A stretch of DNA of 64,000 nt from Bacillota bacterium (GTDB lineage Bacteria > Bacillota > SHA-98 > Ch115 > JABLXJ01): NCBI GenBank assembly GCA_013178125.1, contig JABLXJ010000008.1, forward strand, positions 1 through 64,000, written 5' to 3'. The translations under genes were made by a program, and so were the position numbers. Shown in pieces: positions 2,773 through 56,656 of the stretch (position 1 is the first letter of the stretch; every line of letters begins with the position of its first letter). The notes under the pieces were generated by a model. That model did not search any database. It was not told where the DNA came from and saw only the letters and a program-made list of their open reading frames with translations.

Positions 2773-4176
2773 CTAGATATCCGCCTTAACACCCAGGATA
2801 TCGCAGAGCGCAGCCAATTCAGGCTTCCAGTCGCCATAAACGAGGAGATAATGTTGACCTATTGCCTTCTCGAGGAATGAATCAATATCGCCATCAAGCC
2901 TGATCACCGCCTGCGGCCACCTCTCAGGGAAAAGCCCACGGGGTTCGAGCGGCATGTCGAGAACCGTGCCGGTAGCCATGTGTATTCGTGCTGTCCCTTT
3001 GCCGCCGCCTAGCTTCGCGATAGTGACCAGCCCGGGCCTCAATGGGAAGGAGGTGGTTGCGCCTCTGGATGTCCCCGGGTACCCCATCATGACAGGGACC
3101 GGCCACAGGGCGATTGAATCCCTATCTCTTGCCATAGAAAGCGGCCCCGATCCGCAATTTATGAGCCTGATTGCGCCCTTTTCTCGCACCACAGAATTCA
3201 GATCTCCAAAGAAAACGGTTTGGCCCGTTAACCTGTTGAGGATGAACATCGTGACACACGATGGCATATCGGCCTCGCACGCGCACATTATACCGTCATC
3301 ATTGAGGAGCGAGTGAGAAAGGCAAGCGGCCCACCCGAGCCCGCATGCGCTCGAAGAGAGCTCCGGTTGGCACTTGTTCCCTATTGCATCCAGACCCTCA
3401 TCCTCGACGATTTTCTTGAGCGCAAGGTATATCTTGCATTGAACCAGCAAATCCTCATCATTCAAGGTCTCCCCTGTCTCAGAGACCTCGCTCACGATAT
3501 GCCCCACAGTCTCCTTCACCCTGGCCAGAACCTCCCTGGCCTCCTCGTCAGGGACCCTTTCCATGTTTTTGATTACCCAGTAAGTATCATAATGCGGGAG
3601 ATCAAATCCAGCCACCTGTTTCCAGTAGAACTCATCAATCGTCGCGTTGTACATACCCATGGATTTCCCGCCGATTTCGCCGAATTTCGCACCTGCCAGC
3701 CTGGCGGCAACGGCCGCTGCGCGGGCCCGTTTGGCGATCGCCTCGATCACGCAGTCTTCCTCCGGGAGTCCCGCGATAAATTTAAATCTCGCCCCCATCT
3801 CTTGGAGGGTGTATTTTGCAACCGTCGCGCCGCCGAGCGCAAAATTTGCTATTGTGGTCAGCGACCATAGACAGAACGGAACCTTCAAGGCCCGCACTGA
3901 GCTCACAACCTGGGGCGCCAGTATCCATGTCCCTATTAAATAAACTATGAGATCCGCTTTCTCTGCGACAGCCCTTGAGGTCTCGGCGATAACGCCAGCT
4001 TCATCACTGACGATGTCCCCCCCTGTAACCTCACACCCTGCAGCTCCAAGCCGCTGGACGGCCTCCTTGACCAGCTCCGGGATGTTCTCCGCATACTCCC
4101 GGGGTTTAGTCACCGCGATCAGCCGGACCTTTGGTATCGCCGGCATCGCCTTGTTCGAACCTATATCAGAATTCAT
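2773..4176 (-). CDS. L-fucose/L-arabinose isomerase family protein
   Basis: 467 residues, the usual length of this metal-dependent ketol-isomerase family. The N-terminal half is Rossmann-like and includes a GTW loop (VYLIGTWILAP) and GGKSMGMY. The C-terminal half has NKCQPELSSSACGLGWAAC, then ACEADMPSCVTMFILNRLTG with the Glu-Ala-Asp metal-site motif, and ARIHMATGTV. It should interconvert an aldose and a ketose in the cytoplasm. It is followed by the aldolase-like gene and preceded by a sugar ABC transporter, so it acts on the imported sugar or its derivative. Family members of this branch are often only called fucose isomerase-like, and the exact sugar cannot be read from sequence. Confidence 0.75.
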   Translation of the reverse strand: MNSDIGSNKAMPAIPKVRLIAVTKPREYAENIPELVKEAVQRLGAAGCEVTGGDIVSDEAGVIAETSRAVAEKADLIVYLIGTWILAPQVVSSVRALKVPFCLWSLTTIANFALGGATVAKYTLQEMGARFKFIAGLPEEDCVIEAIAKRARAAAVAARLAGAKFGEIGGKSMGMYNATIDEFYWKQVAGFDLPHYDTYWVIKNMERVPDEEAREVLARVKETVGHIVSEVSETGETLNDEDLLVQCKIYLALKKIVEDEGLDAIGNKCQPELSSSACGLGWAACLSHSLLNDDGIMCACEADMPSCVTMFILNRLTGQTVFFGDLNSVVREKGAIRLINCGSGPLSMARDRDSIALWPVPVMMGYPGTSRGATTSFPLRPGLVTIAKLGGGKGTARIHMATGTVLDMPLEPRGLFPERWPQAVIRLDGDIDSFLEKAIGQHYLLVYGDWKPELAALCDILGVKADI

Positions 4177-11470: not shown

Positions 11471-11957
11471 GACATAAAATCCTAAGGTTTTGACGTAAGA
11501 TGCCAAAGAATTCCAATTACCTAATAGCTGGTGGCTTGTTGCGGCCATCCTGCCAACATTCTTGGCAGGATGGCCCCGGTCACGGGTGAGCCTGCCTACT
11601 TTCTTGGCGGGTTGCGCGCGAAGATGCCAAGATCCTTGGCAGTTTACCTTGCTCAGGGTATTAGGGTGATCACTTTTTTGGCAGGTCACGTATAGAGGTG
11701 CCAAGTTTATGGGCAGGCACGCATACATCCTGCCAATATTCTTGGCAGTCTGCCCTAGTCAAGGGTCGAAGATGTCTATTCTCTTGGCAGGCCGCGCGTG
11801 ATGATGCCAAAATTCTTGGCAGCTGCGCACCCAGCCTGCCAATATTCTTGGCGATTTACCCCGGTCAGGGGTGAACTTGCCTACTTTTTTGGCAGGGAGG
11901 TGGGGTAGCATGGCAAGTTTCTTGGCACCTTATGTCAAAACCTCAGGGACATAAAAT
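11471..11957. mobile_element. 467-bp TIR-bounded element with 10-bp target duplication and TGCCAA palindrome array
   Basis: The left terminus 11481-11506 begins CCTAAGGTTTTGAC; the right terminus 11922-11947, read in reverse complement, begins CCTGAGGTTTTGAC. The 26-base ends match at 23 positions. GACATAAAAT directly abuts both ends (11471-11480 and 11948-11957), a perfect 10-bp duplication. Inside, 17-bp palindromes related to TGCCAATATTCTTGGCA start at 11551, 11593, 11625, 11667, 11699, 11731, 11773, 11805, 11837, 11878 and 11911. Spacings are 42, 32, 42, 32, 32, 42, 32, 32, 41 and 33. There is no transposase gene, so it would be a non-autonomous element. Confidence 0.8.
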
Positions 11958-17559: not shown

Positions 17560-17792
17560 GGCAGACCCCCACGCCGCAATGCAACGCCACAGAGAATGGA
17601 AATGGCTTTAGCTGTGGTAATGTCTATTTTTTTAGGTAGTTTTCGGGGTAGACCCCCCATGCCGCGCTGCGGCGCCACAGAGAATGAAAATGCCTCTGGA
17701 AGTAATTGGGTCATTTTCGGGGTAGACGCCCATGCCGCCTTCAGCGGCACCAGCAGGGAATGAAAATGGCCTCTGTAAGATTATTTTCAGGG
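17560..17792. repeat. Three tandem copies of a 72-86 bp hairpin-rich unit
   Basis: Copies span about 17560-17645, 17647-17720 and 17721-17792. Each has GTAGAC(C)CCCATGCCGC, a short loop, GCGGC, CCAC, then AGAGAATGAAAATG and ATTTTCGGG. Two stems recur: GCCGC/GCGGC, and a CAGAG...CTCTG stem around the AATGAAAATG loop; in copy one the second stem is CCACAG...CTGTGG instead. Preservation of pairing with changed bases suggests an RNA or cruciform role. Confidence 0.75.
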
Positions 17793-17818
17793 TAGGGTAG
17801 CAGCAGATGCTGCGGGTA

Positions 17819-50009: not shown

Positions 50010-50106
50010 GGGAGCAGATGGATCCTGGTGGGTCTCCTGGACTTCAAATCCAGTGTCGGGCGGTAAGACCGGCCGGGGTGGGTTCGATTCCCACATGCTC
50101 CCGCCA
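50010..50106 (+). tRNA. selC: Selenocysteine tRNA (UCA anticodon)
   Basis: The 97-base gene has an acceptor GGGAGCA/TGCTCCC, discriminator G and encoded CCA (50104-50106). The anticodon stem-loop is CTGGA-CTTCAAA-TCCAG with anticodon TCA at 50044-50046. A long variable arm (TGTCGGGCGGTAAGACCGGC region) and T-arm GTGGG-TTCGATT-CCCAC complete the tRNA-Sec features. It inserts selenocysteine at UGA with SelB, whose gene lies downstream. Confidence 0.95.
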
Positions 50107-51085: not shown

Positions 51086-52372
51086 ATGGCCGATGTGCGA
51101 AAGCTCCGGCTGACCCACATGTCATCGAAGGCCGGCTGAGCCAGCAAGTTGGGTCCGGCGGACCTGGCACAAGTTTTGTGCCGCATAAAAACAAAAGCTC
51201 AAGACCAGAATCAAAACCGGGGCCAAGATCGAGGTCAAGACCAGGGCCAGACATACCCAGAAGGCCAAGCACACCCGGAGCACGGCGAGCCGGGTGAAAG
51301 TGAGCTGGGCTGGGCGGAAACCCACGGCCGGGCGCGGATCACGGCGAGGAACAATACCGATGGCTGTGGCTATGGCCATGGCCATGGCTATAGCTATGAC
51401 CCGAACGTCCTCGTGGGATTCGAGACATCAGATGATGCGGGGGTATACCGGCTATCCGATGACCTCGCTATCGTCCAGACCGTCGACTTCTTCACACCTA
51501 TCGTCGACGACCCGTATATGTTTGGCCAGATCGCGGCGGCCAACGCCCTAAGCGATGTTTACGCCATGGGCGCGAGGCCGGTCACCGCCATGAATGTCGT
51601 CTGTTTCCCTTGCTCAGCGGGCATGGACGTGCTCGCGGAGATTATAGAGGGCGGGGCCGATAAGGTCAGGGAGGCTGGAGTCTCGCTCATAGGGGGCCAT
51701 ACTGTCACAGATAAGGAGCCAAAATATGGGCTTTCCGTCACAGGCCTCGTGCACCCGGCCAGGATCATTACCAACAGCTCATCCAAGCCTGGCGATGTGC
51801 TGATCCTCACGAAACCCCTGGGCACGGGCATCCTGACGACTGCCTTCAAATTCGACAAGATAAGCGAAGAGGATCTGGCCGAGGCGGTTCACGTTATGAG
51901 CGCCCTCAACAAGGCAGCGTCCGAGGCTATGCAGGCTGTAGGTGTAAGTGCCTGCACAGATATAACGGGGTTCGGGTTGATCGGGCACTCCTGCGAGATG
52001 GCGCAAGCGAGTGGGGTGCAATTCCTCATCGACGCGCGCAAGGTGCCGGTGCTCCCCATGGCGGGCGAGCTTGCCGAGAAGGGCATTCTGCCGGGGGGGG
52101 CTGGCGAGAACATGCTCTATTTCCAGGAGTGGACCGATGTCTCGAGCGGCGTCCCGCAGGCTCTGAAGGCAGTGCTTTTCGATCCCCAGACCTCAGGGGG
52201 GCTCCTGATATCGGTGCCGGCCGCTAAGGCGGAGCTTCTGGTGGATTCCCTGCGCCAGGCCGGCGTGGAGGATCCCAGGATCATTGGTGAAGTCGCTGAG
52301 GTTGAGGGCAGGGTTGAGGGAGCGCCTGCCCCGGGCGCGAGCGATCCGGTTCCGGCGGTCCAGGTATTCTGA
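51086..52372 (+). CDS. selD: Selenide, water dikinase SelD, itself a selenoprotein (in-frame UGA)
   Basis: About 428 residues if the UGA at 51137-51139 is read as Sec (residue 18), in the catalytic position: LTHMSSKAG-U-ASKLGPADL, the usual GCxxK context with U for C. ATG at 51086 is preceded by GGAGGT. Further SelD motifs: VLVGFETSDDAGVYRLSDDL, VDFFTPIVDDPYMFGQIAAA, NALSDVYAMGARP and SLIGGHTVTDKEP. Between the N-terminal domain and DPNVLVG there is an inserted repeat-rich stretch (QNRGQDRGQDQGQ, Gly/His-rich GYGHGHGY) of about 60 residues. It makes selenophosphate for SelA. Confidence 0.92.
51137..51168 (+). promoter_or_regulatory. UGA and candidate bacterial SECIS hairpin in selD
   Basis: Directly after the UGA, GCCAG (51140-51144) pairs with CTGGC (51164-51168), and inside it GGTCC-GGC-GGACC forms an apical stem. 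The position immediately 3' of the UGA is right for SelB recruitment. Confidence 0.7.
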
Positions 52373-52506
52373 TGTCTGATGTCTGGCATCCTGTACGTGT
52401 GGCATCTGTAGGCGTGGCAAACGGAAGGCCACCCGTACTTCTGAACCTATGGGGCTCTATACCGGTCAGCCCCACCGGATACCGGACAACTCTGCGCCGG
52501 GCCTGT

Positions 52507-52686
52507 TACGTCAAACCTGCTACGTCAAACCTGCAAAGAATCTTGGCAGGATACCCACCCTCCTACCCTGAAAATAGCTCCACCCGCATCAGGGGATTTT
52601 CCTCTACCTGATGGTGCTGCGTAGCGGCATGGGCGTCTGCCAAGAATATTGGCATCTTCGCACGGGACCTGCCAAGAAAGTTGTCA
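52507..52686. repeat. Three TGCCAA palindromes on the same lattice, with TIR-like words
   Basis: 17-bp units start at 52532 (TGCAAAGAATCTTGGCA), 52638 (TGCCAAGAATATTGGCA) and 52670 (TGCCAAGAAAGTTGTCA). Spacings are 106 and 32; 106 equals 42+32+32, the super-period of the array at 11551-11927. Two copies of TACGTCAAACCTGC (52507-52520, 52521-52534) resemble the TIR segment TTACGTCAAAACCT of that element. It lies between selD and selA. Confidence 0.75.
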
Positions 52687-52778
52687 TGCGCATGCTTGGT
52701 GAGCAATTAGGGAGCAAATAGAAGCCTATCAGAAGTTATGAAACGAAGTGCTACGAGAAAGCTGAGTAGGTCAGGCAC

Positions 52779-54491
52779 ATGGCTAAGGATCACCATAATC
52801 ATAAATATAGCGGGCCGGAGCCTAGCGATAGCGAACTCCATTCGAACGCGCTCCTCGCGCGTGTGCCTTCGGTGGCCCTGGTGCTCGAACACCCTATATC
52901 CAGGTCTCTTTTGCAGAAGATATCCAGGCGCGATATCGCCGAAACCATACGCGACCTCCTGGATGATTTGCGGGGGGAGATACTTGGCGGCCGGATCGAC
53001 CGCAACACATCACGCGACGAGATGATCGATATGGTCACCTCCGGGCTCGAACGCGCCGCCACCAGGAGGTCGGCGCGCAATCTGAGGCGCCTCATCAATG
53101 CTACGGGCGTAGTGTTGCACACCAACCTCGGCCGGGCGCCGCTCCCCCGGAGGGCCCTGGATGCCGTGGCCGAGGTATGCTCCGGCTATTCAAATCTGGA
53201 ATTCGACCTCGAATCCGGAGAGCGCGGCTCCAGGCAGCAACACCTGCGCTCGCTGCTCTGCGAGCTGACCGGGGCCGAAGCCGCGCTCATCGTCAACAAC
53301 AACGCCGCCGCAGTGTTTTTATGTCTAAACACGCTCGCCTCGGGCAGGGAGGTTGTGGTATCCCGCGGACAGCAGGTCGAGATCGGCGGGAGCTTCCGGA
53401 TTCCTGATGTTATCGCATCGAGCGGCGCGAGGATGGTCGAGGTCGGGACAACCAACAAGACGCACCTCAGGGATTATGAAGCCGCAATCACCGACGCGAC
53501 AGCCATGCTGCTCAAGATACATACGAGCAACTTCAAGATAATTGGTTTCACGGCGGAGGTATCCCTGTCCGAACTGGTCGAACTTGGCAGGCGCCGAGGC
53601 CTCATCATCATGGAGGACCTCGGGAGCGGCAGCATCCTGGATTTATCCCAACTAGGGCAGGGCCTGCCGCACGAACCAACGGTACGCGACAGCATCCAGG
53701 CCGGCGCCGATCTCGTGACATTCAGCGGCGACAAGCTCCTGGGCGGCCCCCAGGCCGGGGTCATCGTGGGCCGGAAGGAGTTGATAGCCAGGATCAGCAG
53801 AAACCCCCTTGCAAGGGCGGTCAGGGTGGATAAGATGACCCTCACGGCCCTGGAGGAGGTTCTGCGCCTCTATCTCGAGCCCGACGTGGCCGCATGTGAG
53901 ATTCCAACCCTCAGACTCCTTACAAGAACCCTACCCGAGCTCGAGGAAATTGCGGAACACCTGGCCGGCCTTATCGCACCCATAGCAGGTGACGGATGGA
54001 GGGTGGAGGTCATTGACGATGCCTCTGAAGCTGGAGGAGGCTCGCTGCCGGGCGTCTTCCTTCCCGGCAAAGCGGTATCCCTGGTACCGGCATCCCTAGC
54101 ACCGGCACCTCCGACACCGGTATCCCCAGCACCGGTATCCCCGGCACCGGTGGTTTCTCCGAACGTTAATGGCCTCCAGTCAGCCCTGAGACGATCGATC
54201 CCGCCCGTCATCGCCCGCGTCCACAAGGGACAGTTGCTCTTTAACGTCAGGACGCTCCTGCCGGGGGACTGCGAGATCATAGCAAGGGCGCTCTCCGAGG
54301 CCCTCGCTGACTTATCGGCATCACAGGCTGAACCAGCTCACCTATATGCACCGGCAGCTGGCCGCTCGGCATCCTCGCCACGTTCACCCCGGAGCCGGGA
54401 GCGGGGCCAGAAGACCCAGGAGGACCACGAGGCCCAGGGGGCCCAGGGGGCCCAGGAGGCTCGGGAGGCTCGGGAGGCACGTCCGTCGTGA
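52779..54491 (+). CDS. selA: L-seryl-tRNA(Sec) selenium transferase
   Basis: About 570 residues. The N-terminal tRNA-binding domain precedes ARNLRRLINATGVVLHTNLG RAPLPRRAL. PLP-domain landmarks: SNLEFDLESGERGSRQQHLR, VNNNAAAVFLCLNTLASGRE, GQQVEIGGSFRIPDVIASSG, EDLGSGSILD and the PLP lysine in LVTFSGDKLLGGPQAGVIVG. It converts Ser-tRNA(Sec) to Sec-tRNA(Sec). Residues about 432-462 are a Pro/Ala/Val repeat (PAPPTPVSPAPVSPAPVVSP) and the C-terminus has EAQGAQGAQEAREAREAR, both low-complexity inserts. Its stop overlaps the selB start (GTGA). Confidence 0.95.
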   Translation: MAKDHHNHKYSGPEPSDSELHSNALLARVPSVALVLEHPISRSLLQKISRRDIAETIRDLLDDLRGEILGGRIDRNTSRDEMIDMVTSGLERAATRRSARNLRRLINATGVVLHTNLGRAPLPRRALDAVAEVCSGYSNLEFDLESGERGSRQQHLRSLLCELTGAEAALIVNNNAAAVFLCLNTLASGREVVVSRGQQVEIGGSFRIPDVIASSGARMVEVGTTNKTHLRDYEAAITDATAMLLKIHTSNFKIIGFTAEVSLSELVELGRRRGLIIMEDLGSGSILDLSQLGQGLPHEPTVRDSIQAGADLVTFSGDKLLGGPQAGVIVGRKELIARISRNPLARAVRVDKMTLTALEEVLRLYLEPDVAACEIPTLRLLTRTLPELEEIAEHLAGLIAPIAGDGWRVEVIDDASEAGGGSLPGVFLPGKAVSLVPASLAPAPPTPVSPAPVSPAPVVSPNVNGLQSALRRSIPPVIARVHKGQLLFNVRTLLPGDCEIIARALSEALADLSASQAEPAHLYAPAAGRSASSPRSPRSRERGQKTQEDHEAQGAQGAQEAREAREARPS

Positions 54492-56656
54492 TTACGAATT
54501 ACAAGTACGACAAGCACATAGTGCTCGGGACGGCGGGGCACGTGGACCATGGCAAAACCACACTGACAAAGGCCCTGACCGGCATAGATACCGACCGGCT
54601 GAAGGAGGAGAAGGCGAGGGGCATGACCATAGACCTTGGCTTCGCGCCCTTCCGCCTGCCCAGCGGCAGGACCGTCTCTATAGTGGACGTCCCCGGGCAT
54701 GAACGTTTCATAAGAAACATGGTGGCCGGCGCCACCGGGATAGATATAGTCATGCTGGTTGTGGCCGCGGATGAGGGGATCATGGAGCAGACCCGCGAAC
54801 ACCTCGACATCCTTTCATTGCTCGGGACCTCGACAGGCGTGGTGGCGCTCACGAAGATAGACCTCGTGGACCAGGAATTCCTCGGCATGGTCATAGCCGA
54901 CATCGAGGACTACCTGAAGGGCACATTCCTCGGGGGCGCCAGGATAATCCCGGTCTCATCCGTAACAGGAGAGGGAATTCCCGAGCTAGTTTCCGAGATA
55001 GACCGGCTCGCCGGGGTTGCTGAATCCACAAGGATACCACCCAGCCTCTTCAGGCTTCCAGTAGACCGGGTATTCACTATCGCGGGTTACGGGACCGTCG
55101 TGACCGGGACCGTGGCCGGCGGAGAAATCGGGATAGGCGAGGAAGTCGAGGTGCTCCCCCCTGGCAGGGCCGCGAGAATACGCGGCATCCAGGTGCATGC
55201 CCGGCGGGCCGAACGCGCGGTCGCCGGGGACCGGGCAGCGCTCAATCTCGCGGGAATCCAGAAGGACGAGATCGAGCGGGGATATGTAGTTGCAAGGCCT
55301 GGCACCCTCGCGGCATCGACGCTTGTGGATGCCACCCTCACGGTGCTTCGAAACACGCCGGGCGTGTCCCATGGCCAGCGGGTCCGCATGCACATCGGGA
55401 CGGCGGAGGTTATGGCGCGCATCCGCGTGATGGGGGCTGATAGCATCGCAGGCGGTGAGGAGGGGTACACCCAGCTCGTCCTCGAGGAACCAACAGTCGC
55501 CGCGCGAGGGGACAGGTTTATTATTAGGTCATACTCGCCCGTGAGGACCATAGGCGGCGGTCGTGTGCTGATGCATAACGCGCCGCGGAGGCGAAGGTTC
55601 TCCCAGCACGATCTTGACGTGCTCGCCATTGAGGAATCCGGTTCCCTTCAGGAGCTGATCGAGCTGGTCTTGAAAGAGCAGGGAAATCTATCAAAGACCC
55701 CGCGCGGCGCCGGCGCCCGGGTCTCCCCGGTCGCCGCTGAGGAGCTGGCTGCGAGGCTCCTGGTGCCCATTGACGATGTCAAGCGCATAGCGAGCGAGAT
55801 GGCGATGGCAGGAGCCGGAACCGCGGAGGCCGAGCTTAAAGCGCCCGCTGGTTCAAATGCTGTCGGCATTGCCGAGAGGCGGGTGGTAATCCTCCCGGGG
55901 ACCGAGAGAATGCTGTCAGGCGGGGGTGCAGCCGCCATCCGCAATGCTCTGCTCTCGACCCTGGATGACTTCTACTGTGAATTCCCAATGCGTCTGGGGA
56001 TGCCCAAGGACGAGCTCCGGATGAAGGTCGCTCCCCACTGGGATGAGGGCGATTTCGATGCATTTCTCCTGCTCCTCCAGGAACCAGCCACGGGCGATGT
56101 ACCTGGTGTGCCCAACGTAGGCGCCCCTACCGTAGGCGATGTGCCTCCTGTGAGCAATGCGTCTGGGGACAATATACCCGGGCGGGCCGGTGGGTGGACC
56201 GGGGGTATAATCCGGAGCGGGAATATGGTCATGCCGCCAGGTGTCGATAGGGAGCGCACGATCGCGGAGCGGCCTGAGGTCCTGGCGGTCGAGACCGCAT
56301 ACAGGGATGATGGCCTCAACCCCAGGAAGCTCCCCGACATTCTCGCATCAAACGGCATATCCCATGAGACCGGTGCCGAAATCATGCGATTCCTACTCGA
56401 GACAGGACGCCTCGTAAGACTAGGTGGAACGGCCGATGGGGTCATCCTGCACGCCGACGCGCTCGAGCGCGCTAGAAGCGAGGTCATCAAAAAGATCAAA
56501 AAAGATGGCTCGATCAGCGCCAGCGAGCTGCGTGATGCCCTGAAATCAAGTCGCAGGCTTGTTATACCCATCCTGGAATACTTCGATCGCATCAAATTAA
56601 CGAGCCGCGTAGGCGATGTGAGAAAGGCGGGGCCGGGGTTCCCGGGGCCGACTTGA
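54488..56656 (+). CDS. selB: Selenocysteine-specific elongation factor
   Basis: 722 residues starting at GTG. G1 [21 protein letters not shown]2/G3 [12 protein letters not shown] and [21 protein letters not shown]4 ALTKIDLVD. Domain [29 protein letters not shown]. The C-terminal winged-helix domains that bind SECIS run from about 480 onward, including [20 protein letters not shown]-like segments. It brings Sec-tRNA to UGA at SECIS hairpins. A Gly/Pro/Val/Asn insert ([19 protein letters not shown], residues about 537-556) separates two winged helices. It belongs with selA in one unit. Confidence 0.96.

Follow-up and report, generated by a model that had tools for sequence, protein, structure and literature searches.

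A probable mosaic repeat of palindromic units and a folded module between selD and selA

Palindromic units and the interval between them

The intergenic region between selD (51086–52372, + strand) and selA (52779–54491, + strand) carries three 17-bp palindromes, and the question raised by this locus is why the first two lie exactly as far apart as the repeat period of a regular array. In the window, that is, the whole 64-kb stretch of DNA analyzed, the units (pattern TGCCAAn5TTGGCA) were located at 52532, 52638, and 52670, and the spacings of 106 and 32 bp were in agreement with an earlier sequence-only reading. The pattern was far above chance. Shuffled sequence would be expected to hold 1.4 matches with up to three mismatches, and no shuffle had more than 6; the window had 29, nearly all of them within two loci carrying lattices of such units. 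The earlier reading took the feature, placed at 52507–52686, for an old copy of the element at 11481–11947, in which two middle units had mutated beyond recognition while the distance was kept without insertions or deletions.

The content of the interval did not bear out such decay. The 89-nt inter-unit stretch scored 22 against lattice arrays free of module M, a 74–75-nt structured repeat, and 43 of 300 shuffles scored 22 or more, reaching 28. Against copies of M, the same stretch scored 140 (shuffle maximum 28), and an intact 89-nt stretch from another array, used as the control, scored 178 in the same test. Furthermore, no 17-mer close to a place where a unit was expected had fewer than 7 mismatches out of 12. 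The loss of two units by decay was rejected, for the gap was no closer to lattice arrays than shuffles were, yet near-identical to M. This M copy is not itself decayed, because it was 96% identical to the copies in L052 and L054, 97% to that in L132, and 100% over the partial copy in L133, all elsewhere in the genome. The exact distance of 106 bp had been regarded as a preserved lattice spacing. However, the distance between units was 109 instead of 106 in L043 and L056, which possess a 77-bp M, and the figure is therefore not a relic of a decayed lattice. It is the sum of 32 and 74, and its match to the lattice period is coincidental. A preserved spacing can mislead: another module, almost equal in length, produced the exact 106 bp.

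The full feature spanned about 52484–52753 on the + strand, longer than first described. The left end of the family (CTCTGCGCCGGRCCTGTTACGTC..ACC, 52484–52531, outer limit uncertain by about 10 bp) contained a 14-bp tandem duplication of TACGTCAAACCTGC, whose two copies at about 52506–52533 had been correctly noticed before. The start unit TGCAAAGAATCTTGGCA (52532–52548) followed; other copies usually start with TGCAAAGAAACTTGGCA. Module M (52563–52637) started exactly at the next lattice position (+32), ended directly before the next unit, and matched the covariance model R1 with 79 bits (E 2e-18), the window copy being among the sequences used to build that model. Then came the unit TGCCAAGAATATTGGCA with perfect half-sites (52638–52654), a 15-nt spacer of type Y (TCTTCgCRYRCRACC, 52655–52669) collinear with other arrays, and the last unit TGCCAAGAAAGTTGTCA (52670–52686), of type c, the usual unit preceding the right end. 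The right end (TGCGCATG..GGGAGCAAA..CTATCAGAAGTTATGAAACGAAGTGCTA, also TGCGCATG..CTATCAGRACTTATGAAACGAAGT; 52687–52753) stopped some 25 bp short of the start codon of selA. In the window, L043, L054, and L056, M began exactly 32 after the preceding unit and led directly into a unit or a second M, and the offset in L052 was 36 by reading. Both M and the lattice unit begin with CTRCC.

The lattice family and the terminal-repeat element

The genome that holds the window (G000, 3.48 Mb) contained about 16 intergenic elements carrying unit arrays. The usual array was a triplet with a period of 105–106 bp (unit a, 15 nt, unit b, 15 nt, unit c, 24–25 nt, repeated), and the copies were collinear. Unit a was often TGCCAAGAATATTGGCA, unit b TGCCCAGAATCTTGGCA, and unit c TGCCAAGAAAGTTGGCA. 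The copies shared common left and right ends, those of the selD–selA copy recurring in about ten others, and possessed 2 to 11 units, several being truncated at one end. The left end of the window copy aligned with those of L044, L053, L049, and L217 (score 25–42, 0 of 1000 shuffles) and more weakly with L050 and L054, and it did not align with L076 of the same-genus genome G001. Its right end matched those of L044, L047, L043, L051, L052, and L133, plus L074 and L075 of G001 (score 29–45, at most 1 of 1000 shuffles). In L217, at about 1980–2020 (G000:C14:29478), a family left end stands alone, with no lattice units. According to crude gene calls, the units sat between long reading frames at nearly all loci. 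All but one (C34) of the 48 perfect units in the genome lay inside arrays, so that a scattered single-site host regulon of the palindrome was rejected.

The element at 11481–11947 (+ strand) is related but different: terminal inverted repeats of 26 bp, with the 12-bp direct repeat GGACATAAAATC, enclose its lattice of 11 units. Alignment of the two, as had been proposed, gave a homologous block, 52637–52692 against 11587–11642 (82% over 56 bp, E about 1e-8), with homology extending past the palindromes. Kinship as lattice-bearing repeats was thereby upheld, but not identity as one element, for the family right end matched eight copies and had no similarity to the 11481 terminal repeats (0.94–0.95 of shuffles were as good). 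The selD–selA copy had neither terminal inverted repeats nor a 12-bp direct repeat of the 11481–11947 type. The TACGTCAAACCTGC copies had been thought to recall the terminal repeat. The TACGTCAAACC motif did share about 10 nt with it (score 23, 0 of 1000 shuffles), but in inverted polarity, and it had no partner at the other end of the copy. In other family copies its place reads TTACGTCGCACC or is more diverged, and the better interpretation of the motif is a family left end in which 14 bp have been duplicated in tandem. A terminal-repeat remnant at 52506–52533 was not supported, though the 10-nt similarity stays.

For the proposal of an old 11481 copy with two middle units mutated away, the triplet period of 106, the 82% block, and the 10-nt resemblance at the left speak in favor. 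The proposal is nonetheless very improbable, given that the supposedly decayed stretch is near-identical M with lattice similarity at shuffle level, that little has changed in the units and ends flanking it, that copies with the longer M read 109, and that terminal repeats are absent.

The two kinds of element were also found mixed. L074 of G001 combined the family right end with a terminal repeat at its opposite end, and the limits of an element are a matter of definition because lattice and terminal-repeat elements are mixed in that genome. Elements with the CTRAGGTTTTGACRTAAG terminal repeat were seen at 11481–11947, L048, L062, and L067, with about ten copies in G001. The direct repeats at some of them measured 12 bp at 11481, 10 in L067, and 9 in L048 (by reading), a length that suggests a candidate IS4-type mover. 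No transposase was seen beside lone CTRAGGTTTTGACRTAAG ends, and no autonomous partner was seen in the reading frames and sequence read between neighboring M copies or at lone G001 terminal repeats.

Probable insertion at selD–selA and the likely nature of the element

The locus lies in a selenocysteine cluster, with tRNA-Sec at 50010–50102 (+ strand, Rfam RF01852) and selD, selA, and a selB-like gene within 51086–56656. The in-frame TGA of selD at 51137 is read as selenocysteine (KAGUASK), and its context was the same in L084 and L085. The selA protein shared 81% identity with that of G001. It had been proposed to look for relatives without the insert, and such relatives were found: selD–selA of G001 and of two genomes of the same order had neither units nor M. 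The gap between the genes in G001 was about 125 bp (by reading), and at the site of a second lattice copy, L044, the syntenic G001 contig was about 200 bp shorter. Insertion in the present genome is simpler than loss in the relatives. No target-site duplication was seen for lattice copies that lack terminal repeats; at selD–selA the junctions are blurred, the intergenic flanks aligning too poorly with G001 to fix them. Between selD and selA, G001 carries a perfect inverted repeat of its own, 14 bp long (CTAGACCAAGGCCT, L083 about 3050–3243).

The variation of the units was examined half by half. There were 129 one-sided changes that break pairs and 10 two-sided changes that keep them, compared with 7.9 expected if the halves were independent. 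The two halves of a unit act as independent sites, and the unit does not behave like a hairpin maintained by selection. Of 149 adjacent spacings, 142 were 32–33 or 41–43, close to 3 and 4 helical turns, although the copies share ancestry and these near-whole-turn values rest on few independent ones. The unit cores were A/T-rich (38% G+C). Such spacings suggest, at the level of sequence, that protein dimers may line up along the same helical face.

These features would also be expected if the arrays were sites serving the host, bound by a chromosome-organizing or regulatory protein and kept by selection, as BIME-2 is for gyrase. Spacings of 32, 41–42, and 106 near whole turns, A/T-rich cores, half-site-like variation, and the occurrence of arrays in G009, from a different family of the class, would fit. 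We consider this unlikely, in view of the patchy distribution. Arrays were found in three genomes (G000, G001, and G009) among 41 relatives, and the exact-pattern scan of the genome collection gave 30 stretches, with G001 and G009 among them and 1–2 matches in each of the others. Moreover, both loci compared with G001 (selD–selA and the L044 site) were empty there, and copy length varied from 2 to 11 units. A phage or plasmid origin gained no support: an exact-pattern search of viral contigs and a distant BLAST against phages and plasmids both gave no match.

The stretch 52484–52753 is probably a non-coding, non-autonomous mosaic repeat of BOX/BIME-like type, inserted between selD and selA and holding M in register. 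The anatomy of the element, the identity of its module, and the absence from the same place in relatives were observed directly. A left and a right end flank its array of 17-bp palindromes, a plan shared by about 16 intergenic elements of the genome, and M occupies the grid after the first unit, begins where the next unit should, and passes directly into a unit. The element may be moved in trans by an enzyme; the loci that were read showed no transposase or other mobilizing gene linked to the family. Each unit would offer its two half-sites to a dimeric DNA-binding protein bound on one helix face, because the half-sites vary independently and the spacings are near whole helical turns. Arrays might change length, and take up M, by recombination between shared unit boundaries. 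At selD–selA, the element is probably near-neutral.

Mosaic elements of REP/BIME type are mobilized with RAYT transposases (PMC2817692), and the present arrays resemble them in their regularly spaced extragenic palindromes, recurrent inter-unit motifs, and mosaic composition with inserts. The units here, however, are 6-bp half-sites around 5 nt, all on one grid, and their palindromes are not kept by compensatory change. In addition, the Y1 transposase domain PF01797 had 0 matches in G000, which is 98% complete, while control genomes were positive. A RAYT-driven REP/BIME can accordingly be given hardly any weight. The non-autonomous mosaic repeat is favored because the Y1 transposase is absent, the units are not hairpin-like, and the perfect units are bound to arrays.

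The BOX element of Streptococcus has the structure boxA–boxB(n)–boxC, with terminal inverted repeats, target duplications, and similarity to ISSpn2 (PMC3049150). Like BOX, the present family is a modular, probably non-autonomous intergenic repeat with fixed left and right ends and variable internal modules, into which other small repeats are inserted. It is different in that neither terminal inverted repeats (absent also from the selD–selA copy) nor target duplications were found in lattice copies, and in that the internal modules are 105–106-bp palindrome triplets with helical-turn-like spacing, and M. Compared with MITEs such as RUP, the sister element at 11481–11947 is alike in its terminal inverted repeats and 12-bp direct repeat, of which terminal repeats G001 has about ten copies, while terminal inverted repeats were absent from the selD–selA copy and a target duplication was not seen there. 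Nothing relevant on such repeats in this bacterial group was found in the open-access literature searched. Modular intergenic repeats (BOX, BIME) are already known; the apparently new parts are module M, the lattice of 106-bp triplets, and the exact fit of M onto the lattice grid.

Module M as a structured repeat

The covariance model R1 of M was built from 40 copies, and matches were accepted at E ≤ 0.001. Of the 299 genomes sampled from the phylum, 66 gave a match, in 49 of 214 genera, and G000, G001, and other sources of the model were among them. When the window copy was aligned with copies from 15 further genomes, 18 two-sided changes fell in three helices of M, where shuffles gave 4.2 and slid controls no more than 6; the alignment had been fitted to the model, which favors structure. 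A pseudoknot was tried as well. Only the three helices, in the wider set, are claimed, because the four-helix model barely exceeded shuffles in the first alignment. No Rfam match to M was found at E up to 5 for the window stretch and up to 1 for 12 loci bearing M or lattice units.

The covarying helices, together with the end of the element about 25 bp before selA, would suit a cis-acting RNA, an attenuator or leader between selD and selA with M as its structured core. This is improbable, more so than a host-serving array. M occurred at many unrelated loci in both orientations, the gene upstream being antisense in 36 cases and sense in 17 by crude gene calls, and this mixture speaks against a leader RNA and for a repeat that has dispersed. 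Furthermore, selD–selA of the relatives had no M or units, and no forward terminator or promoter-like site was found inside the element (52484–52753).

On present sequence evidence, M is a repeat independent of the lattice and scattered through the phylum. Three tandem copies without lattice units lay at 17565–17795 (− strand), and further copies were seen at many places in G000, G001, and G003. A wider reading, beyond the mosaic repeat at selD–selA, is that the same recognition boundary serves two repeat systems. One would be a helically phased lattice to which a lineage-specific dimeric protein binds; the other would be a phylum-wide, mobile, folded M that enters on the grid and represents a new class of structured mobile repeat whose mover is not a Y1 transposase. 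We regard this as possible but doubtful. M is a folded repeat in about a fifth of the sampled genomes with no counterpart matched in Rfam, and both M and the palindrome lattice can now be searched for and tested. In L183, L184, and L190, from distant genomes, the loop of the first M helix holds about 40–50 nt extra, apparently self-complementary.
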